Positions 3,124-17,459 of a stretch of DNA of 22,263 nucleotides are shown here, piece after piece. Under the pieces are notes generated by a model. It worked only from the letters and a program-made list of their open reading frames with translations, was not told the origin of the DNA and did not search any database. The stretch covers positions 1 through 22,263 of IMG/VR virus record IMGVR_UViG_3300035633_001091. One strand, given 5' to 3'. The position numbers and the translations under genes were made by a program. The stretch comes from a virus. Positions within the stretch are counted from its first letter, which is position 1. Every line of letters starts with the position of its first letter.

Positions 3124-4344
3124 GTGCAAATTCACTGTAAATACGACAAATTAGTGCCCGTGGAACAGGTCATCGGTAACCCTCAAAACACTAACAAACA
3201 CCCAGATAAGCAGGTGGCGTTACTAGCTAAAATCATCGACTACCAAGGCTGGAGGCATCCCATTGTTGTATCTAACCTCTCCGGCTACATCGTGGCTGGA
3301 CATGGACGTCTCGATGCCGCAAAAAAACTAGGCGCTGATACTGTCCCAGTGTCCTACCAGGACTTTGAAAATAAAGCCCAAGAAATGGCATTCTTAGAGG
3401 CCGATAACCTAGTTGCAGACCTGGCCGAACACGATCAAGTTATGATGCTAGATAACATTCGCGCGTTGGATCTTGATGATGACTTTGATTTAGAGCTGTT
3501 CGGTATGCCCGATTTACAGCTACCTGAAGTAAAGGTTTTAAATGAGGAGTCAGAGGATGAGGTGCCAGAGAATGTAGAGACCAGGTGTAAAGAGGGTGAT
3601 CTTTGGATATTAGGTGAGCACAGATTGCTTTGTGGTGATAGCACCAATATTCAGCACGTTGAAAGGCTTATGGGTGGGCAGAAGGCTCAAACTTTTTTTA
3701 CTGACCCACCATATGGCGACAATGTTGGTGGTCTTAAACCTAAGACCGGAAAAGACAAAAAAAAGGCAATTGCTGAAAATCGTGGACTTGTAGATAGAGA
3801 AACATTCATAGAAAACGACAAAGACATTGATTGGCTAAAAGATGTATTTAATTTAGTGCCTTCTTTTTTAGAGAACGTTTCTACTAAGATGGTGTTTTTT
3901 AAGTGGGATAAGTATCAAAAAATAAAAGATTGTGCAGCTTCTTTTGGCGATCCATCAGCGTGTTGTGTTTGGGATCGAGTAAGAAAGTCATCTGCATTTT
4001 TTAGGTTTCAACCGCAACATGAGTTTTGTTTCCATTGGGGGTCACAAGCAGACAAGAAAGAAAAGAGTAGTCTTTCTAATGTTTGGAGAATAGAAAAAGA
4101 GCTTGAAAACAACTCTCTGCATCCAACAGTAAAGCCGATTGCATTGATAGAACCTGTGATAAAAGTTACCACAGATAGAGCTAGTGGTGTACTCGACCTA
4201 TTCGGTGGCTCTGGCTCAACCCTAATAGCCTGCGAAAAAACAAACCGTAAATGCTTTATGATGGAATTAGACCCGCACTACTGTGATGTCATACTCACGA
4301 GGTGGGAGAAGTACACGGGAAAACAAGCTGAACGTGTGGTATAA
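3124..4344 (+). CDS. ParB-like domain fused to beta-class DNA methyltransferase (probably N6-adenine)
   Basis: This 406-residue protein has two domains. Residues about 10-100 form a ParB/Srx-like module with NTNKHPDKQ near 22-30 and GHGRLDAAKKLGA at 59-71. Residues about 155-400 form a SAM-dependent amino-methyltransferase. Catalytic motif IV, DPPY, is at 194-197, HPTVKP is at 333-338, and the SAM-binding DLFGGSGST is at 358-366, followed by ELDPHYCDV at 381-389. Motif IV preceding motif I marks the beta class, and DPPY favours adenine-N6 over cytosine-N4. Such fusions are common in phages and often act as solitary methylases protecting phage DNA from host restriction; no partner endonuclease is visible here. 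The start is GTG with GGAG five bases upstream. The middle (about 3720-4170) is noticeably more A-rich than the ends, suggesting mosaic origin of the target-recognition part. Confidence 0.92.
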   Translation: MQIHCKYDKLVPVEQVIGNPQNTNKHPDKQVALLAKIIDYQGWRHPIVVSNLSGYIVAGHGRLDAAKKLGADTVPVSYQDFENKAQEMAFLEADNLVADLAEHDQVMMLDNIRALDLDDDFDLELFGMPDLQLPEVKVLNEESEDEVPENVETRCKEGDLWILGEHRLLCGDSTNIQHVERLMGGQKAQTFFTDPPYGDNVGGLKPKTGKDKKKAIAENRGLVDRETFIENDKDIDWLKDVFNLVPSFLENVSTKMVFFKWDKYQKIKDCAASFGDPSACCVWDRVRKSSAFFRFQPQHEFCFHWGSQADKKEKSSLSNVWRIEKELENNSLHPTVKPIALIEPVIKVTTDRASGVLDLFGGSGSTLIACEKTNRKCFMMELDPHYCDVILTRWEKYTGKQAERVV

Positions 4345-9544: not shown

Positions 9545-10381
9545 ATGTCTAATTTACCTGCTTTTAAACAGGACCTCATTGCGAGCGTAGTTCAGCGCGA
9601 GCTTGAGTTTTCTGCTAAGTTGTTGCCTTTGATCACGAACGTTTCTCAGTTTGCGGTCCCTGGCGCTCGTTCTATCAGTTTTCCGAAGCTAAGCTCTTTT
9701 GTTGTCAACGATCGTGCTTTTGGTGCTGCGGATACTCCTCAGACTTTGGCTGACACTGTTGATCAGATCCTTATGGATAAGAACAAAATTGTTCAGTACA
9801 TTTTGGATCGTAAAGACAGCGCGCAGACTACTATCAATGAAGAAGTTGAGTATGCGCGTCGTGCAGCCAGTGCTCATGGCCGTGATATGGATGAAGAAAT
9901 CCGAGCGATTTTTGAGTCTGCTGGTCGTACTGACTGGGGTGTTGCTACTGGTGATATCACTCGTGACATTATCCTAGATATGCAGCGTGCAGCGTTTGAT
10001 GCAGAGGCGAACGAAGATGAGTTGTCACTAGTTGTTTCTAACGACCAGTACCAAGCTCTTCTTAAAATTAGTGAATTTACTGAGCATCAAGTTTATGGAC
10101 CAAACCAAGCCATTAGCGCGGGTCAAATTGGTAATGTTTATGGCATGCCTGTAGTGAGACGTTCTAATATGCCGGCTCAAACTTACTACATGGTGGGTAA
10201 AGAAGGTTGCGCACTAGGTATCCAAGTTGCTCCACAAATGGACAGCGATAAGGCGATCGAATTTGGTGCTGGATCAATGCGACACGTTATGGACGTCCTA
10301 TATGGAGTCGATAGCCTTCAGAGAGGCCTCAAGGGCGCTGGACCAACTGAGTCTGCATTGTTGTTTAAGGACAACAACTAA
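9545..10381 (+). CDS. Major capsid protein (HK97-type fold expected)
   Basis: This 278-residue protein follows scaffold and has the best ribosome site of the head genes (CGGAGGG, spaced to the ATG). The N-terminal helix (VVQRELEFSAKLLPLITNV, about 15-33), an E-loop-like segment with RSISFPKL at 42-49, and a later A-domain with VVSNDQYQALLKIS and GNVYGMPVVRRSNMPA near 193-210 match the plan of P22/HK97-like coats without an accessory insertion. It is short for the family, so it probably needs external decoration proteins for stability, which fits the genes that follow. No protease gene is next to it. The mature N-terminus is therefore probably uncleaved or trimmed by another enzyme. Confidence 0.88.
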   Translation: MSNLPAFKQDLIASVVQRELEFSAKLLPLITNVSQFAVPGARSISFPKLSSFVVNDRAFGAADTPQTLADTVDQILMDKNKIVQYILDRKDSAQTTINEEVEYARRAASAHGRDMDEEIRAIFESAGRTDWGVATGDITRDIILDMQRAAFDAEANEDELSLVVSNDQYQALLKISEFTEHQVYGPNQAISAGQIGNVYGMPVVRRSNMPAQTYYMVGKEGCALGIQVAPQMDSDKAIEFGAGSMRHVMDVLYGVDSLQRGLKGAGPTESALLFKDNN

Positions 10382-10396
10382 TCTCGTTATAAAACG

Positions 10397-10609
10397 ATGG
10401 CAGCTAATATTCGACGCATTCCATCTTTTGTAAAAGCCCGGAGTCCACAGCGGCTCCGGGATCTTATGTTAAAGGCCAACTCTGACCGTGGTGTTCAGCA
10501 TGAGTGGTTAAGCATTCAATATGTGCCTGAAGATAAGAGCTGGTATGCATGGTATATGACCATTGTGGACTTTGACATGATTAGAGGGGAGATTGGTGAT
10601 GGCAACTGA
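10397..10609 (+). CDS. Hypothetical 70-residue protein after the capsid gene
   Basis: This 70-residue frame starts 16 bases after the capsid stop. The N-terminal half is basic (SFVKARSPQRLRDLMLKAN) and the C-terminal half is aromatic and acidic (DKSWYAWYMTIVDFD). No family is recognised. There is no clear ribosome site before the ATG, so it may be translated by re-initiation after the capsid gene. A 7-bp GC hairpin (10437-10460) lies inside it. It overlaps the next gene by 11 bases, the pattern of the surrounding operon, which supports it being real. Confidence 0.55.
   Translation: MAANIRRIPSFVKARSPQRLRDLMLKANSDRGVQHEWLSIQYVPEDKSWYAWYMTIVDFDMIRGEIGDGN
10437..10460 (+). other. GC-rich hairpin about 55 bases after the capsid stop
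   Basis: CCCGGAG (10437-10443) and CTCCGGG (10454-10460) are perfect 7-bp inverted repeats with a ten-base loop. No T run follows on the plus strand, so it is not a normal terminator. It could protect the capsid mRNA 3' end or slow transcription, setting capsid above downstream expression. Confidence 0.35.
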
Positions 10610-11033
10610 TGTAATCCCTTCTACCGACAGTTGTGTAACTGTCACTAATGAACAAGAAAAATTTGCTCTCAATTTAAACGGCAAAAAAATCGTTAGGGTT
10701 GAGGATGAAGCTGCGATTGAGGTTTTAGCACAGATACTTGGTGCTTTAGGTGGTTCGGTAGCTGTTGATCCAACAATTACGCCAGTAACCACGATTGCGA
10801 ATACTGAAACGCAAATAACGTTGCCTGCAAATACGATAGAGTTTCGTTTGCAAGCGCGTGGAGATAGTAAAATATTTTTGGCTTACAATGCTGGTGATAT
10901 AGCTAATGGTGACCATGTGACCATATGGCCAGGCAATTGTGAGGTTGTTTCGCGCGAGTTAAATCAGTCTGATATTTTCGTGCAAACATCATTGAGTGAT
11001 ACAATTGAAGTGCATTCTTTTTCTAGAATTTAA
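10599..11033 (+). CDS. Putative capsid decoration protein with C-terminal beta-sandwich
   Basis: This 144-residue protein starts at ATG 10599, nine bases after a GAGGGG site. The in-frame TTG at 10593 is too close to that site. Residues 1-50 hold a short charged helix region (VEDEAAIEVLAQILGAL). Residues about 60-144 are strand-rich with the order TQITLP, FRLQARGDSKIFLAYN, DHVTIWPG and DTIEVHSFSRI. A similar order of strands ending in a short Glu-containing tail is seen in the C-termini of the products at 11046 and 12103. I infer a small trimeric decoration or head-fibre base domain; no catalytic motif is visible. Confidence 0.6.
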   Translation: MATDVIPSTDSCVTVTNEQEKFALNLNGKKIVRVEDEAAIEVLAQILGALGGSVAVDPTITPVTTIANTETQITLPANTIEFRLQARGDSKIFLAYNAGDIANGDHVTIWPGNCEVVSRELNQSDIFVQTSLSDTIEVHSFSRI

Positions 11034-11045
11034 GGAGGAATAACT

Positions 11046-11855
11046 ATGAGTAAGAAGCGACTGGTTTTTGACATTACAGACTCAAACACGATTGCCGATA
11101 GCGATAATGTTGGAGCATACCTAAGAGACAGCGCGGGTAACCTGCTAACGTCTACACTTAACGGCGCTGCTCAAGCGCTAGATGTTAACCTAACTGGGTC
11201 TACTGGTTCTATTGAGGTAACTGCGACTGACCTTGATATCCGCGACCTAACGGCTGCTAGCGATAGCGTTGCTATTGGTGACGGTACTGATTTGTTGGCT
11301 GTTAACGCTGATGGATCAATTAACGTAAACAGCACAAACGTTGGCCCAGTTCGTTTTATTCAAGACGGATCGCCTGTTGATGTGTTGGAGGACACTGTTA
11401 CTCCGGCTAACAACCAGCCATTACCTGTAAAGCTAACCGGCACGACTGGTGACATTAACATTACAGCTGGTGACTTGAACGTGCAGAACGAGCACACTGG
11501 CGCTAACTTTGACTCAATCCGCATCGGTGATGGTACTGAGCTTGTTAACATTACGCCAAACAACGACCTTCAAGTTGTTGATTACTGGGATTCAGCTATT
11601 TTGCCAAGCCTTGAAACTGTTGGTACGAGTGCTGTTCAGTTGGTTTCGTCTGCTTTGGCTAACCGCAAGGAAGTAGTTGTTTGCAATGATTCTAATCAAG
11701 CGGTTTACTTAGGTGGAGACAACACAGTAACCACTGGTTCTGGTTACCCGCTTTATCCAGGTGATGAGATTCGTTTGCCACTTGGGCCGACTGCTCAGCT
11801 TTGGGCGATTGGCGAAAAGGCTGCTCAGGATGTAAGGTTGCTTGAAGGGGCATAA
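11046..11855 (+). CDS. Repeat-containing structural protein, probable head decoration/fibre
   Basis: This 269-residue protein has an AAGGAGG ribosome site. It contains two tandem beta repeats: residues about 22-94 and 99-177. The most similar segments are LTGSTGSIEVTATDLDI (49-65) against LTGTTGDINITAGDLNV (130-146), and VAIGDGTDLLAVN (75-87) against IRIGDGTELVNIT (158-170). Residues about 190-269 form a beta domain (EVVVCNDSNQAVYLGG, PLYPGDEIRLPL) like those in the adjacent small proteins. There are no Cys pairs or membrane segments. Repeated thin beta modules ending in a cap suggest a short fibre or spike, probably on the capsid given the position after the coat gene. Confidence 0.7.
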   Translation: MSKKRLVFDITDSNTIADSDNVGAYLRDSAGNLLTSTLNGAAQALDVNLTGSTGSIEVTATDLDIRDLTAASDSVAIGDGTDLLAVNADGSINVNSTNVGPVRFIQDGSPVDVLEDTVTPANNQPLPVKLTGTTGDINITAGDLNVQNEHTGANFDSIRIGDGTELVNITPNNDLQVVDYWDSAILPSLETVGTSAVQLVSSALANRKEVVVCNDSNQAVYLGGDNTVTTGSGYPLYPGDEIRLPLGPTAQLWAIGEKAAQDVRLLEGA

Positions 11856-12106
11856 TGCAAGAGTTTAAAGAGATTGATATTCGTATACTTAAAAACATCA
11901 AGGTGGCCCTTCAGACGGGCCGCTTTGAAATTACTGGTATAGAGGCCATTGAGCTTGCCAAAATGATGGACTGGTGTGATCAAGTTAATGACTTGATTAT
12001 ATGGCAGCTTAAAAACCCTCGCCCAGTTCAAGTAAAGCCGAAGCCTGTAACGGCAGCTGCTAAAAAAACAGGTACTAGGTCAACTCGAAAGGCCAAGAAA
12101 AAATGA
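11855..12106 (+). CDS. Hypothetical 83-residue basic-tailed protein
   Basis: The start overlaps the preceding stop (TAATG), and the stop overlaps the next start (ATGA), so it is a coupled member of the operon. Residues 1-50 appear helical and amphipathic (IRILKNIKVALQTGRFEI, IELAKMMDWCDQVNDLI). Residues 55-83 are Lys/Ala/Pro/Thr-rich, ending in RKAKKK, a disordered basic tail that could contact DNA or the acidic inner capsid. No family is recognised. A structural or assembly role is inferred only from position. Confidence 0.65.
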   Translation: MQEFKEIDIRILKNIKVALQTGRFEITGIEAIELAKMMDWCDQVNDLIIWQLKNPRPVQVKPKPVTAAAKKTGTRSTRKAKKK

Positions 12107-12378
12107 GCGGTAGATTTAATGCTTTAACTAGTAATGGTGATGAAGCGTTAATTGTTGTGACGACGACACCTCAGGTTGTTACTACACCTCAGTCTCGCCG
12201 TGAATTGTTGTATTTAGAAAACCGCAGCATTAATCCTGTATTTTATGGGCCTAGTGGTACTCCTTTAGCGCGTTTATCGTTTCGGCAGTCGGTTTTTTTG
12301 CCTATTACAAAAGACATTGAAATTACAGTTGTAACTTCGGTTGGAACTGCGGATTTAGTGGTGCAAGAGTATGAGTAG
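12103..12378 (+). CDS. Small single-domain beta-sandwich protein, probable decoration protein
   Basis: This 91-residue protein consists almost wholly of the domain seen at the C-termini of the products at 10599 and 11046. A TTPQVVTTP strand is followed by RELLYLENRSINPVFYGPSG, then a turn, SVFLPI, DIEITVV and a closing LVVQEYE. Small capsid-cementing proteins have this size and strand content. It is coupled to both neighbours by overlap (ATGA upstream; eight bases shared downstream). The function is inferred from fold pattern and location. Confidence 0.6.
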   Translation: MSGRFNALTSNGDEALIVVTTTPQVVTTPQSRRELLYLENRSINPVFYGPSGTPLARLSFRQSVFLPITKDIEITVVTSVGTADLVVQEYE

Positions 12379-13612
12379 TCGTGCATCCAAGTCAGATGTA
12401 GCGATTGCGGTCCCGTTTGATCCTACTGGTTCTAGTTTAATTTCTCAGGATGTTGAGAGCGCGATTAAAGAGATTCAACAGTTAAGTGCGGCTAGCGCTA
12501 GTCCCGGTTTTACGTGGGGTCTTGAGGGCTCTGGTGGTCCGGGTAAGTATTTTAACAACGACGGTGTTGAGTCAAACAAAGCTGGTCGGTTAGTTCCGTT
12601 TAGTGGATTTATATCTGAAATCTTTTTAAACAATGAGGCGACGTCGGGCATGAGGCGTGTTGCTATTCAGCGCAGACGACCAGCTCAGTCTGGTGAGTTT
12701 AGTGACATTGTTACGGTTTCTCTGCCTCCGGGTCAGCCATCAGGTACGTTTGTTGTTAATGTTGCAGTTCTTGAAAACGATGAGCTTGCTGTTGTGGTTG
12801 ACGGCGGATCTAGTGATTTTGAAAACTGTATTCTTGGATTGATTATAAAAAACAATGCTCAGGGCCAAGTTGGCGGGTCTTTTTTGCAGACCCGTAATGA
12901 GGGGGTGTTAATTGAGCAAACAACGACCGAGTACGATTTTACTGGGTCTGGCGTTACAGCCACTAGTAATGGTAACGGTGTTGTAACAGTTGATATTAGT
13001 GGTGGTGCTGGTTCTGGTGAAACCAACACTGCAAGTAATGTTGGCAGTGGAGCTGGTGTATTTTTTAATAAATCAGGTGTTGATTTACAGCTAAGAAGTT
13101 TAACGTCTAGCGGCTCTGGAAGTGTTACGGAGGCTGGCAATGAGATTGTTGTTAACTTTCCTACGATTGATTTAGACGTTAACAAAACAAGTCAGGGGGT
13201 CGACACGGTCGGTGGGCTTAATCTGAATGGCGGCTTTACAGATTTGGTTTTTGATACGATAACAAACAGCAGTGTAGCAACGCTTGTTGGCGCGGACATG
13301 ACAATTAATTTGTCTGGACTGTACGAGATCCATTACGACACAACTAATTTAATTACGGGTGGGGCGAGGACTCGGACGGATTCAAAGCTTCAAGAAAACA
13401 CTGGTGGCGGTTTTTCTGACATACCGGGAACACTTAGATCAATGTATCACAGAAACACTACAACAGACTCTAACTCAGCATCTTGTACAATTATTCGTCA
13501 GTTTACAGCGGGTGACGTGGTTAAGGTACAGACCGGAAGGGTGGCAGGACCTTCAACTGCTTTAACTGTGGCCAATGGCGCTGCTTTTTACGTTAAGTAT
13601 TTAAGGAGTTAG
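12371..13612 (+). CDS. Fibre-like structural protein with C-terminal C1q/TNF-like jelly-roll
   Basis: This 413-residue protein has several modules. An N-terminal segment with DVESAIKEIQQL (about 27-38) resembles the trimerisation linkers of phage fibres. A beta domain follows at about 45-175. Next is a Gly/Ser/Thr-rich shaft with GSGVTATSNGNGVVTVDISG (192-211) and repeated NxGSGAGVF-like turns to about 265. The last 110 residues (GLYEIHYDTTNLI, RTDSKLQEN, CTIIRQFTAGDVVKVQTG, GAAFYVKYLR) have the alternating strand pattern of C1q/TNF-like trimeric heads, which bind ligands in other proteins. Placed between capsid and neck genes rather than after the tail genes, it is a good candidate for a capsid-displayed fibre. 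A side tail fibre is the alternative. Confidence 0.7.
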   Translation: MSSRASKSDVAIAVPFDPTGSSLISQDVESAIKEIQQLSAASASPGFTWGLEGSGGPGKYFNNDGVESNKAGRLVPFSGFISEIFLNNEATSGMRRVAIQRRRPAQSGEFSDIVTVSLPPGQPSGTFVVNVAVLENDELAVVVDGGSSDFENCILGLIIKNNAQGQVGGSFLQTRNEGVLIEQTTTEYDFTGSGVTATSNGNGVVTVDISGGAGSGETNTASNVGSGAGVFFNKSGVDLQLRSLTSSGSGSVTEAGNEIVVNFPTIDLDVNKTSQGVDTVGGLNLNGGFTDLVFDTITNSSVATLVGADMTINLSGLYEIHYDTTNLITGGARTRTDSKLQENTGGGFSDIPGTLRSMYHRNTTTDSNSASCTIIRQFTAGDVVKVQTGRVAGPSTALTVANGAAFYVKYLRS

Positions 13613-13614
13613 AA

Positions 13615-14436
13615 TTGAGTGTAAGGCTTAGAAACACGACAGGTTCGGATATATTTATTAATTCAGCCGGTGAGCTTATTCAGGCTGGAGAGACGCAGGT
13701 TTTTGACCCTAAGTCTTATGCAAGCTTGCAGGGTGGGGTATTAGTTGGTGAGTCAGCTGAAGATCCGGCTTTAATTGCTGCAATAAACAACGGATCACTT
13801 GTTGTTAACGATGGTGATGAAGATTTGTCGCCTGAGGAAGGGTTGCGGTTTTTGGAAGATGGTGGCCAGCTAAAAGTTGCGATTGATGGTGTTATTACGG
13901 GTCGAGCAATACGTAGGCTAAACATTACTGGTGAGGCGACCTTATCTGTTGATGCGGCGGGTATAGCGACGCTAACTGTTGGTAATGAGACTGCAAAAAA
14001 CAAGATATATAGCTTTGAGTTTACAGAGGCTAATAGAGCATCTGACGAATTTTTAGAAGCTAATGGTGATGGCAAAAACTCTGACGCTTCACCGCATGTA
14101 ATACCATTTAACTCTAAAGTTGTAGGATACACACTGACCAACTCGGAAAACGATGCAAATACGGATGTTGAGATTTACAGAGTGGCTGAGGGTAACGGTT
14201 CTGGACCTGCTGTATTGGTTGATACTTGGGTTTTAAGAAGCGTTCGCACGGCGAGAAAAACTAACTTTTCATCTGACATTGTGTTTAGCGCTGGCGATAA
14301 GGTTGTGGCTTTTGTGCGCGACAGAGGAAATGACCCAGACGATGTGGTATTTAAAATGTATTTACAGGTGACGAGTGAGGTGACTGGTGAAAACGTAGAG
14401 AATTGGGCTGGAGATATTAATGTGCCTGGTAGCTAA
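13615..14436 (+). CDS. Structural protein with shared N-terminal module and beta-sandwich C-terminus
   Basis: This 273-residue protein starts at TTG 13615 with AAGGAG six bases upstream. Residues 1-85 form a module also present at the start of the next gene, with the common pattern A..NN..L.VN....DLS......FLED. Residues about 90-130 are a short beta segment. Residues about 130-260 form a strand-rich domain with PHVIPFNSKVVGYTLTN, VDTWVLRSVRTA and FSAGDKVVAFVRDRG. This resembles beta-sandwich modules recurring in phage fibre and decoration proteins. No enzyme motif is seen. I infer a capsid-surface or fibre protein. Confidence 0.65.
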   Translation: MSVRLRNTTGSDIFINSAGELIQAGETQVFDPKSYASLQGGVLVGESAEDPALIAAINNGSLVVNDGDEDLSPEEGLRFLEDGGQLKVAIDGVITGRAIRRLNITGEATLSVDAAGIATLTVGNETAKNKIYSFEFTEANRASDEFLEANGDGKNSDASPHVIPFNSKVVGYTLTNSENDANTDVEIYRVAEGNGSGPAVLVDTWVLRSVRTARKTNFSSDIVFSAGDKVVAFVRDRGNDPDDVVFKMYLQVTSEVTGENVENWAGDINVPGS

Positions 14437-14456
14437 TAAGAGGAGGACGACGACTA

Positions 14457-15215
14457 ATGCGTTTTGTAGCTATAAAAAACGACAGCGGTGTTATGCAGAC
14501 AATTATAGGGCGTCAACTTCAGGATGGTGAGCAGTATCGTTTTTTAACTTACGGTGAGCTTGAGAGGTTCCGTAATGACGAAGCTAATATTGTTTTAGTT
14601 AATAACCAAGAGCTTATAGTGGTTAACGAGTCTGGTGACGTGACTAATTTATCGCTTGCTATGAAATGGTTATTTCAAGACAATCCTAGCGAAATACAGC
14701 TTCAGAAGCGTACTGTGTCACAGCAAATTCAAAAGGTAGCTGTTTACGAGTCAGAGGGTGATTTTGATTCAGTTGTTAGTCATAACTTTGCTGACAATTC
14801 GACTTGGGATGATCCTTTAAATAGTGAGTTTTGGGTGTTGCCCGATCCGGGAAAGGTTAAATTTTTGCGTAAAGCTGAGGTGCAGTTTACACATGATATT
14901 GAACTCGCTGGCATCACGGAGCTTTATTTTGATATTATGGCTTACAACCCGGCTGATCTTCCTAATAGAATTTTAGTTCAGCGCATAACGTATTCGAGTA
15001 TTAAAGACGTTTTAAACTTTGGAAACGCTCATTTTACTATGCCTGCTGTTGATAATTTAACTTCTAGCGCAACCACTGTGCAGTTCAATTATCCAAGGTC
15101 TATACCGTTAAATGCTAACCAGGGCTTGGCTGTAAGGTTAAGTACTCAAAACAATCTGCCTTGTAACGGTCAGTTTGTAACGGTTAGTTTTGTTACGGCT
15201 CAGGAGGACTTATGA
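14457..15215 (+). CDS. Structural protein paralogous at its N-terminus to the upstream gene
   Basis: This 252-residue protein follows an AGGAGG site about ten bases before its ATG. Residues 1-78 match the N-terminal module of the 13615 product (IKNDSG, GRQLQDGEQ, NNQELIVVNESGDVTNLSLA). The rest (about 105-250) is a different strand-rich domain with FDSVVSHNFADNSTW, KAEVQFTHDIELAGI and QGLAVRLSTQN. The shared front end suggests a common anchoring site with different exposed domains. The stop overlaps the start of the membrane-protein gene as ATGA. The function is inferred from organisation only. Confidence 0.65.
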   Translation: MRFVAIKNDSGVMQTIIGRQLQDGEQYRFLTYGELERFRNDEANIVLVNNQELIVVNESGDVTNLSLAMKWLFQDNPSEIQLQKRTVSQQIQKVAVYESEGDFDSVVSHNFADNSTWDDPLNSEFWVLPDPGKVKFLRKAEVQFTHDIELAGITELYFDIMAYNPADLPNRILVQRITYSSIKDVLNFGNAHFTMPAVDNLTSSATTVQFNYPRSIPLNANQGLAVRLSTQNNLPCNGQFVTVSFVTAQEDL

Positions 15216-15421
15216 AGTATGTAAGCAAGATGACTACGACGACTTGGTTTATTATTATCACGGCTTTAGTCTGGTTAGCTTATGACGTAGCGATGTATTT
15301 AGCCGAAAAAGAAACCATATCAGAGGTTATCACTCGGGCTAGTTATTACTCTCCTATGGTACCATTTATAGTAGGTTTGTTGTGTGGGCATTGGTTTTGG
15401 ACGAGTGAAATAAAGGATTAA
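15212..15421 (+). CDS. Two-pass small membrane protein, holin-like
   Basis: This 69-residue protein has two hydrophobic helices, at about 10-31 (TTWFIIITALVWLAYDVAMY) and 47-63 (SPMVPFIVGLLCGHWFW), separated by a short charged loop. The ending PFxxGxxxGHxFW is a pattern I associate with a family of small phage membrane proteins in structural operons. A holin role is possible because of size and topology. However, no endolysin or spanin gene is next to it, and a membrane-associated assembly function is equally compatible. It overlaps the preceding gene as ATGA. Confidence 0.65.
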   Translation: MKYVSKMTTTTWFIIITALVWLAYDVAMYLAEKETISEVITRASYYSPMVPFIVGLLCGHWFWTSEIKD

Positions 15422-15423
15422 AC

Positions 15424-16128
15424 ATGGCTATTTTTCCAAATATTGAAACCGACACATTGGTTCAGGTAAATGATCGTTTTCGCATATTGGCGGAAAAAAG
15501 TTTTATCACGCAAGACGAAACTCCAATTACCGCTGTAAACATAACCCCCGAGCTTGGAGGGCCAACTATCGACGTGTTCGATAATTCGCAAAAAAATTGG
15601 TTCTTAGACTGGGAGTATGCCACGGACGGTACGAAGCTGATCACATTGGAGCTAGTGAACGGTGGAGGCTCCCAGTTTAAGACTTTTAGTGTTGAGGCCA
15701 TAACTGAGGCAGATGACCGTTTATTTTCCACTGATCAAGATTTGGCAGAAGAAGAGTCAGATATTTTGCGTTTTGTGCCAAAGGGCCGAAATACGTTTAA
15801 ATATGCTCACAGAAATGCTCAAAAACAAATTTTAGATTATTTGTATCGCATTGCAGTTACGGACATTGATAGAAATAAAATCACAAAAGAAGCGATTGTG
15901 GACTTAGAAGAAGTTCGCGAGTGGTCCAAGTTTTTGACGCTTAAGCTTATTTTTGCTGACTTAGTATCGACTCCAAATGATCATTTTAGTTTGGAGCGTG
16001 ATCGGTATATGATTGCAGCTAGTGAGTCGGCTAATAAGGCAATTTTTAAGCTAGACTTGGATGGGGACGGCACTGTTGAAAGTAGTGAAACGGTTAACTT
16101 AACTAACAGGCCAATTATTTTACGATGA
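15424..16128 (+). CDS. Neck/head-tail connector protein with EF-hand-like loop
   Basis: This 234-residue protein has an N-terminal Ig-like strand region (about 10-92) and a helical, acidic and basic middle (about 95-200, with KYAHRNAQKQILDYLYR) resembling phage head-tail connector helices. Near the C-terminus it carries D-L-D-G-D-G-T-V-E-S-S-E at 211-222. This is a complete 12-position EF-hand/dockerin-type calcium loop with acidic residues at 1, 3, 5, 12, Gly at 6 and Val at 8. An AAAGGA site precedes the ATG. Its stop overlaps the next start (ATGA). The position between head genes and the tail terminator supports a connector role. Confidence 0.65.
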   Translation: MAIFPNIETDTLVQVNDRFRILAEKSFITQDETPITAVNITPELGGPTIDVFDNSQKNWFLDWEYATDGTKLITLELVNGGGSQFKTFSVEAITEADDRLFSTDQDLAEEESDILRFVPKGRNTFKYAHRNAQKQILDYLYRIAVTDIDRNKITKEAIVDLEEVREWSKFLTLKLIFADLVSTPNDHFSLERDRYMIAASESANKAIFKLDLDGDGTVESSETVNLTNRPIILR

Positions 16129-16568: not shown

Positions 16569-17459
16569 ATGGCTTCAAGCGCTAACAATATCGTTATCGC
16601 GCCTTCAAACGTGACCTGGAAAATCCAGGGCAACTGGCAGTTTGATTATGCGGGTCTCGCTGCTGCAAGTTTGGATGGCGTTTATTACACGCTAAACTCC
16701 CCTTCTGGGGCTTTTTACGTTTGGCACAACCTAGACTCAAGTTCAGTTGATCCAGCTCCGGCGGGGCTTACAGCTATTGAGGTTGCGGTTACAACTGGCG
16801 ACAGCCCGACTGTAATTGCGACCGCTGCGGCTGCTGCTATTGATGCTGTTGCTGATTTTGCTGCAACGTCGTCTGCTGCTTTAGTGGATGTAACTGCTGC
16901 GGATTTTGGTCAGGCGACTGATCCAGCTGACGTTGACTCTGGTGTAAGTGTTATTATTTGCCGTAAAGGTAAAGAGTATGACTTAGGCTTAATTGAGGGT
17001 GATACTGAAATCGCTTTTACACCTAGCCTGTTTGACGTAACTAGTCAGCAAACTGGAACAACTATCACAGCGTCACTCGTTCAGGGTTTTGAGGCTGAGG
17101 TGACTACTGTTCTTCAAGAAACAACTCGCAGCCAATTGTCTGAAATTTACTCTATTTATGGCGGACAGTTTTTGCCTGGAGGGGGTACAGAGGTTACTGG
17201 TGTTGGTTCAGCTGCTATTGGTAAAAACTTGCTAGTTGAAGCTGGCCGACTTGAGTTCAATCCGGTTAACGACTTGGGGTCTGAGCTTAGTTACAAAGTG
17301 ACGTTGATGCTTTGTGCTCCGGTGCCTGACAGTTTGTTACTTTCTGGTGAGTCTCCGCGTACGCTAAGCGTTACTTGGAGAGCGTTTATTGATGACACGG
17401 TTGCCGATTCTCGTGCAAACTTCTTAGTTATTGGGGATGCTTTTCAAAGCGGGCTATAA
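16569..17459 (+). CDS. Major tail tube protein with inserted domain
   Basis: This 296-residue protein has a TGGAGG ribosome site and precedes the chaperone pair, the normal place for the tail tube gene. The tube fold is split. Residues 1-30 (VTWKIQGNWQFDYAG) and about 126-296 (CRKGKEYDLGLIEG, ASLVQGFEAEVTTVLQET, LEFNPVNDLG, WRAFIDD) form the tube. Residues about 32-125 are a distinct Ala/Asp-rich domain with YYTLNSPSGAFYVWHNLD, DPAPAGLTAIEVAV and a helical run of Ala. I recall similar inserted domains in other phage structural proteins. It would project from the tube surface. Confidence 0.78.
   Translation: MASSANNIVIAPSNVTWKIQGNWQFDYAGLAAASLDGVYYTLNSPSGAFYVWHNLDSSSVDPAPAGLTAIEVAVTTGDSPTVIATAAAAAIDAVADFAATSSAALVDVTAADFGQATDPADVDSGVSVIICRKGKEYDLGLIEGDTEIAFTPSLFDVTSQQTGTTITASLVQGFEAEVTTVLQETTRSQLSEIYSIYGGQFLPGGGTEVTGVGSAAIGKNLLVEAGRLEFNPVNDLGSELSYKVTLMLCAPVPDSLLLSGESPRTLSVTWRAFIDDTVADSRANFLVIGDAFQSGL

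Follow-up and report, generated by a model that had tools for sequence, protein, structure and literature searches.

A colinear cassette of putative virion display proteins recurs among uncultured phages with different coats and tails

Introduction

The places to which a phage adheres before infection are set by the outer proteins of its virion. The question addressed here is what an island of eight tightly coupled genes, at positions 10397-15215 of the IMG/VR virus record IMGVR_UViG_3300035633_001091, encodes, and where on the particle its products would sit. The record is a 22.3-kb virus stretch (22,263 nucleotides; "the window" means this whole stretch, as analysed) with a siphophage structural region, recognized from profile matches of its coat and tape measure proteins. 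An original prediction, made from the letters of the DNA, had read the island as a candidate undescribed apparatus of surface proteins displayed on the head. We find that the genes here called p2-p3-p4-p5-p6-p7 form a core cassette, colinear across 34 non-redundant loci (window included) and spread over several coat and tail types. In our judgement this is very probably a virion display or fibre cassette, wherever it is mounted; that it is a mobile display apparatus mounted on the head is, from gene position, the reading toward which we lean.

Results

Layout and recurrence of the cassette

The island consists of eight open reading frames (ORFs) of 70, 144, 269, 83, 91, 413, 273 and 252 amino acids (aa), all on the + strand, with junctions of −8 to +20 bases. 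The eight coupled proteins of the original prediction are thus confirmed as near-abutting or overlapping ORFs of one strand, between the coat gene and a gene labelled as neck by its position and relatives:

9545..10381, + strand: major capsid (coat) protein, context; PHROG 267 major head protein, E 3e-19; Pfam PF19821, E 4e-9
10397..10609, + strand: p1, 70 aa, small protein, known beside the window's coat family only
10599..11033, + strand: p2, conserved C-terminal domain; opens the core cassette
11046..11855, + strand: p3, N-terminal motif, variable repeats, C-terminal jelly-roll domain at ~11589-11852
11855..12106, + strand: p4, small; position kept, sequence poorly conserved
12103..12378, + strand: p5, single domain, homologous to the p3 C-terminal domain
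12371..13612, + strand: p6, conserved core (12371-12856) predicted to be C1q/TNF-like, with a helix ahead of the core; C-terminal extension
13615..14436, + strand: p7, base module (13615-13900) and head related to the p6 core
14457..15215, + strand: p8, diverged copy of the base and a different head
15212..15421, + strand: p9, short, apparently membrane-spanning, coupled to p8
15424..16128, + strand: neck/connector candidate, context; unnamed gene, named by position and relatives

The island is not a chance arrangement, because other viral contigs encode homologues of p1, p2, p3, p5, p6, p7 and p8, for the most part in matching order. Searches with the single p3 sequence retrieved six contigs, a number that rose to 23 with a three-member alignment and to 40 with one of fifteen members; these matches, together with one contig of a metagenome-assembled genome (MAG) labelled Omnitrophota and the window itself, collapse to the 34 non-redundant p3-bearing loci, whose gene maps were drawn with profiles built from the window and its relatives. 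A p2 relative stands directly or one gene upstream of p3 in all 34, and p3 is followed by a small ORF (p4), by p5 in 28 loci, by p6 in 24 and by p7 in 21. Beyond p7 the loci carry family g213 (17 loci) and a small enzyme-like family (18 loci); both are absent from the window, where p8 and p9 are found in their place, and the window island is a locally extended copy of the conserved cassette. As an example, locus L104 reads portal, coat, small ORF, p2, p3, small ORF, p5, p6, p7, neck, which is the order of the window minus p8 and p9. The multi-gene kit that had been proposed is borne out by the colinearity of the core, and not by p1 and p8-p9, which fall outside it.

Since all 34 loci had come via p3, p6 and the p7 base were used as independent seeds. 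The p6 seed yielded 36 non-redundant loci, with p7 or p8 as the next gene in 32 of them; the p7 seed yielded 52, with p6 directly before p7 in 42. The p6-p7 half was found also where p2-p3 could not be recognized, and is therefore the more widespread half. As baits, the coat protein retrieved no relatives in viral contigs and the terminase one distant contig. One locus, L029 (JAJVIE010000002.1), carries the complete cassette; its contig was assigned to a Candidatus Omnitrophota MAG, which may hint at a host or reflect misbinning of a virus.

Spread over coat and tail types

The cassette accompanies four coat families that are named separately by PHROGs (267, 14242, 212 and 752). Tape measure proteins, of the sipho-type tail, are found in the window, L010, L011 and L023; in the records of L015, L022, L025 and L030 a tail sheath scores above the Pfam cut-off or close to it (weakly in L030); and a large nozzle-type protein of short tails (podo-type) is present in 13 records. 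The position of the cassette differs among loci: it may follow the coat gene, separate portal from scaffold or terminase from portal (L041), or precede the terminase (L031, L033) or the connector (L004 group). In a tree built from p2 and p3 ends, the podovirus cassette of L017 and the siphovirus cassette of L023 form a sister pair (support 100/98), with that of myovirus L030 adjoining (97/87); L040, whose coat belongs to PHROG 212, clusters with the myoviruses L015 and L022 (96/90). The tree requires at least 8 tail-type changes and at least 10 coat-family changes, as a raw count made without a shuffled-label comparison; the window is on a long branch, and its own nearest kin are unsure. Because its phylogeny crosses coat and tail types, the cassette appears to move as a unit. 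We tentatively extend this to a self-contained, horizontally mobile display module of uncultured phages that fits four or more coat families and each of the three classical tail types; its core would stay constant while its heads are exchanged freely, and it might amount to a general-purpose platform for outer proteins undescribed in cultured phages.

A constant base with many heads

As had been predicted, p7 and p8 have a common base, of ~90 residues: the p7 base profile scores 74 bits on p7 and 23.1 bits on the first 84 residues of p8, versus at most 9.9 bits in 1964 shuffles, although a plain BLAST comparison of p7 with p8 is not significant (E 0.42). The head of p7 is related to the p6 core (p6 profile, 91 bits, residues 99-253). 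Across all loci the base is carried by 101 non-redundant proteins, 88 of them with a C-terminal part of at least 85 aa, and the C-terminal ends of these 88 fall into ~26 clusters at E 1e-3. A p8-type head sits on a p7-type base in L024, and tandem base genes with different heads occur; the neighbours of the tandem p7 loci belong to no named families, and thus do not settle whether the site is head or tail. The p7/p8 base proteins combine an anchor with an outward exchangeable domain, as head-fibre proteins do, and a constant base with many heads is how adhesive or receptor-binding fibre proteins are built.

The p8 and p9 genes overlap by 4 bases. The pair formed by the p8 head and p9 (window 14457-15421; L027:14713-15968) recurs in the 595-kb uncultured phage LR756511, with the p9 relative directly after the p8 head. 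The base-module protein of L065 (211 aa) ends in FHTHP...SHADI, which we take to recall a JAMM-type metalloprotease motif.

The p6 core and the proteins p1 to p5

With AlphaFold2 the p6 core is modelled confidently (predicted local distance difference test mostly 75-93) and the C-terminal extension, particular to the window phage within the aligned set, with low confidence. Core residues 43-164 match 4-1BBL, C1q and adiponectin (Z 8.4-9.2, root mean square deviation ~3-3.6, 110-116 residues), and structural matches at Z 8-9.3 also include a phage KP1 baseplate protein, BclA and a tail fibre of phage 7-7-1. At these moderate scores the core is predicted to be a C1q/TNF-like jelly roll. The C1q-like headed fibre of the original prediction is kept as regards the fold, which is placed in the conserved core; it does not extend to the C-terminal extension that had been named, for which there is no reliable model. 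The predicted p6 core and the constant base with many heads agree with the display-type proteins that had been expected.

The relatives of p3 are aligned by an N-terminal conserved motif, KDxLIFD..IADSDxVGA, and range from 136 to 393 aa with a varying number of short repeats; a frameshift may have shortened the smallest of them. In L010 (~2874-2985) and L011 (~3345-3873) the tblastn match to p3 starts upstream of the intact ORF, which suggests a frameshift or a sequencing error. The end of p3 is modelled confidently as a small jelly roll, and because its best Z of 8.8 is common to the PM2 spike P1 and unrelated domains, we claim a fold class alone. The last 90 residues of p3 are homologous to p5 (hhalign probability 99.1, E 1.2e-18). 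A sequence search of the PDB with p5 and p6 profiles gave nothing significant. The p2 domain was considered as a further relative of p5 and rejected, as a comparison of the two profiles gave no similarity.

An ORF of 55-123 aa follows p3 directly in most loci at the position of p4, with ~16% identity between p4 and its L004 and L008 counterparts. Where a set of beta-rich or repeat surface proteins had been announced, p3, p5 and p6 fit the description; p4, small and poorly conserved, is not obviously a surface protein. The p1 protein was found in four siphophage loci only, its homologues in L010, L011 and L016 each lying directly after the coat gene, and it is probably related to the capsid or connector rather than a cassette member.

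Gene context in the window and neighbouring families

The window begins with a VapE-like protein, a ParB-methylase fusion, a small ORF, the large terminase and a portal candidate, and continues with two further head genes, the scaffold, the coat, the island, the neck candidate and tail genes that include the tape measure (PHROG 13339, E 1.7e-58), located 12 genes from p3. Gene 15424-16128 matches no named family; its relatives sit downstream of the cassette in L010, L011, L023, L048 and L104, and we regard it as a candidate neck gene. No named family was found for p1-p8 in Pfam or NCBIfam, and the PHROGs scan of the island gave one strong match, of p3 to PHROG 30212 (function unknown; E 2.5e-13). 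A PADLOC scan of the island proteins gave no match, and a reading as anti-phage defence is unsupported.

The enzyme-like family that follows the cassette in other phages measures 153-194 aa, with SH(V/T) and (I/N)CSEL motifs in most members (L004:14031-14540, L008:15679-16182, L010:5835-6296 and 15 other loci), and matches Pfam C92 (YiiX-like permuted papain) weakly in L013 and PHROG 1128 in L030. At L012:14525-14791, downstream of the cassette where others have the C92-like enzyme, a small protein without a Pfam match carries a CKIHDMDY pattern that presumably recalls phospholipase A2. A domain with the signature FxVWYNVxGTGVDP...TGIEV occurs at window 16569-17459 (putative tail tube), at L004:8996-9976 (the p2 N-terminal region of one podovirus group) and at L004:15744-19544 (nozzle-type protein).

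Discussion

A possible apparatus, and where it would be mounted

The features above can be combined in the following model. The body of the complex would be formed by p2 and p3, the latter with its conserved N-terminal motif for attachment, its repeat stretch of variable length and its jelly-roll end, of which p5 would be a free copy. A trimeric C1q/TNF-like knob would be provided by p6, and p7 with its local duplicate p8 would dock on the complex through their common base, their exchangeable heads facing outside, where they may touch the host surface, flagella, polysaccharide or mucus. Presence in the virion, location on the head, trimer, docking and binding role are all conjectural here; mounting would most likely be on the capsid, with p4, p1 or a similar poorly conserved protein as adaptor.

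Placement among head genes, as originally proposed, holds in most loci: a head gene lies within 12 genes of the cassette in 27 of the 34, and in the window the cassette region directly follows the coat gene. This position in head clusters, where genes of head-fibre proteins would be expected, the independence from tail type and the portal-scaffold position in several podoviruses argue for the head. Several points weigh on the other side. The coat families vary as much as the tails, and docking on the coat is without direct support; 7 of the 34 loci have no recognized head gene in the stretch fetched, and among the loci obtained with the other seeds a head gene is found within 10 genes in 11 of 36 (p6) and 12 of 52 (p7), counts that come from shorter flanks and few coat profiles. 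In one podovirus group (L004) the coat gene stands ~11 genes ahead of the cassette, which is followed at once by connector and tail genes. Phage tail fibres often contain C1q/TNF-like domains, the Z of 8-9 for the p6 core is just moderately above background, and the head clusters of the base proteins may merge under a more sensitive comparison.

Some of these observations bear on a different location, in which the products are fibres of the neck or tail (collar whiskers or receptor-binding fibres, with the p7/p8 heads as receptor-binding tips) whose genes merely lie in the head region. The p6 core matches to 7-7-1 tail fibres and the KP1 baseplate protein would fit, as would the match of the L004 p7 linker to tail-fibre PHROGs, the position of L004-type cassettes directly before connector and nozzle genes, and the domain common to L004-group p2, the nozzle and the putative tail tube protein. 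Tail-fibre genes would, however, be expected with the tail genes downstream of the tape measure and bound to a single tail type, whereas in the window the cassette stands between the coat gene and the neck candidate, with the tape measure 12 genes further on, and the same cassette occurs with sipho-, podo- and myovirus tail genes and also in positions that precede the terminase, portal and coat genes or fall among them. We consider a neck or tail location unlikely. A location off the virion is less likely still: p9 looks membrane-spanning, and the SH/CSEL-motif family with its weak C92 match is found after the cassette in 18 of the 34 loci, features that might suit infected-cell surface or accessory proteins acting, for example, in superinfection or lysis, but the position in a structural cluster and the fibre-like architecture make this quite improbable.

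It is conceivable, and compatible with head display for p2-p7, that the island joins separate sets, i.e. the core plus accessories, with p1 belonging to the capsid and p8-p9 being an independent pair. We hold this view tentatively; p1 is known with the window's coat family only, L104 keeps the order of the window minus p8 and p9, and the p8 head is found in few loci and is paired with p9 in the 595-kb phage without the rest nearby. On the other hand p8 has a diverged p7 base, and in L024 a p8-type head takes the place of that of p7, which points to the same platform.

Cultured phages and significance

A tblastn search of 50,697 phage records, with p3, p6 and p7 members as queries, turned up no cultured phage that carries the cassette and recovered isolated domains or repeats alone; close relatives are missing at the sensitivity used, in keeping with the claim of an undescribed set. 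Coat and terminase relatives in cultured phages reach ~24-41% identity at most. The additional tblastn matches were a p5-type domain in phiPsal1, repeats in Microbacterium phages and in two uncultured podophages, and the p8 head in the 595-kb phage. The Microbacterium phages OscarSo, Burro and Wesak were dismissed as carriers, since the repeat motif alone is shared and the genes examined have no match to cassette profiles; the two podophages were dismissed likewise, as their repeat match is not accompanied by a cassette-profile match in the genes examined. No decoration or head-fibre family was found for p1-p8 in Pfam, NCBIfam or PHROGs, where many such families may be unmodelled, and no paper describing such a cassette was found in the open-access literature.

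Should phages with otherwise unrelated coats and tails have this one cassette in common, adhesion would become a trait that passes from phage to phage and could be tracked in metagenomes, for which the p3 motif DSDxVGAYLR, the p6 motif PGFxxGRSG and the p7 motif NDGSxDLS offer signatures. The analysis also suggests likely roles for proteins whose present annotation is "hypothetical", and it documents how a constant base occurs in nature with many heads.

Comparison with known systems

The phiPsal1 domain is that of Pontimonas phage phiPsal1 gp5 (AUV61414.1), an 89-aa relative of the p3-end/p5 domain encoded between portal and protease genes; it is a lone domain without the surrounding cassette. 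The predicted p6 fold resembles the BclA exosporium filament and C1q/TNF trimeric heads (Z ~8-9), but these are cellular proteins, a common fold proves no function, and a p6 trimer is presumed.

Among outer capsid proteins, T4 Hoc, SPP1 gp12 and phi29 gp8.5 add little stability and aid surface attachment (review PMC7602432); they are single genes, and no such family is among the p1-p8 matches in PHROGs, Pfam and NCBIfam. Agrobacterium phage 7-7-1 has capsid fibres together with linker/decoration proteins, the fibre structure being unresolved in that paper (PMC12796354); it resembles the proposed apparatus in having several outer proteins on one capsid and a vertex fibre for first host contact (PMC12796354), and differs in that the structural match of p6 is to its tail fibres, not its capsid fibres. 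In phiCrAss001 the head fibres gp21 (trimer) and gp29 (dimer) are encoded by two separate genes and their docking was seen by cryo-electron microscopy (PMC10172136). No p2-p3-p5-p6 body is described there and homology was not detected; the likeness lies in a small N-terminal anchor joined to an outer domain that is variable or rich in beta structure, in capsids that bear more than one type of fibre, and in a proposed binding of outside molecules (PMC10172136). We regard phiCrAss001, 7-7-1 and the reviewed head fibres as functional analogues of the cassette rather than as demonstrated relatives.

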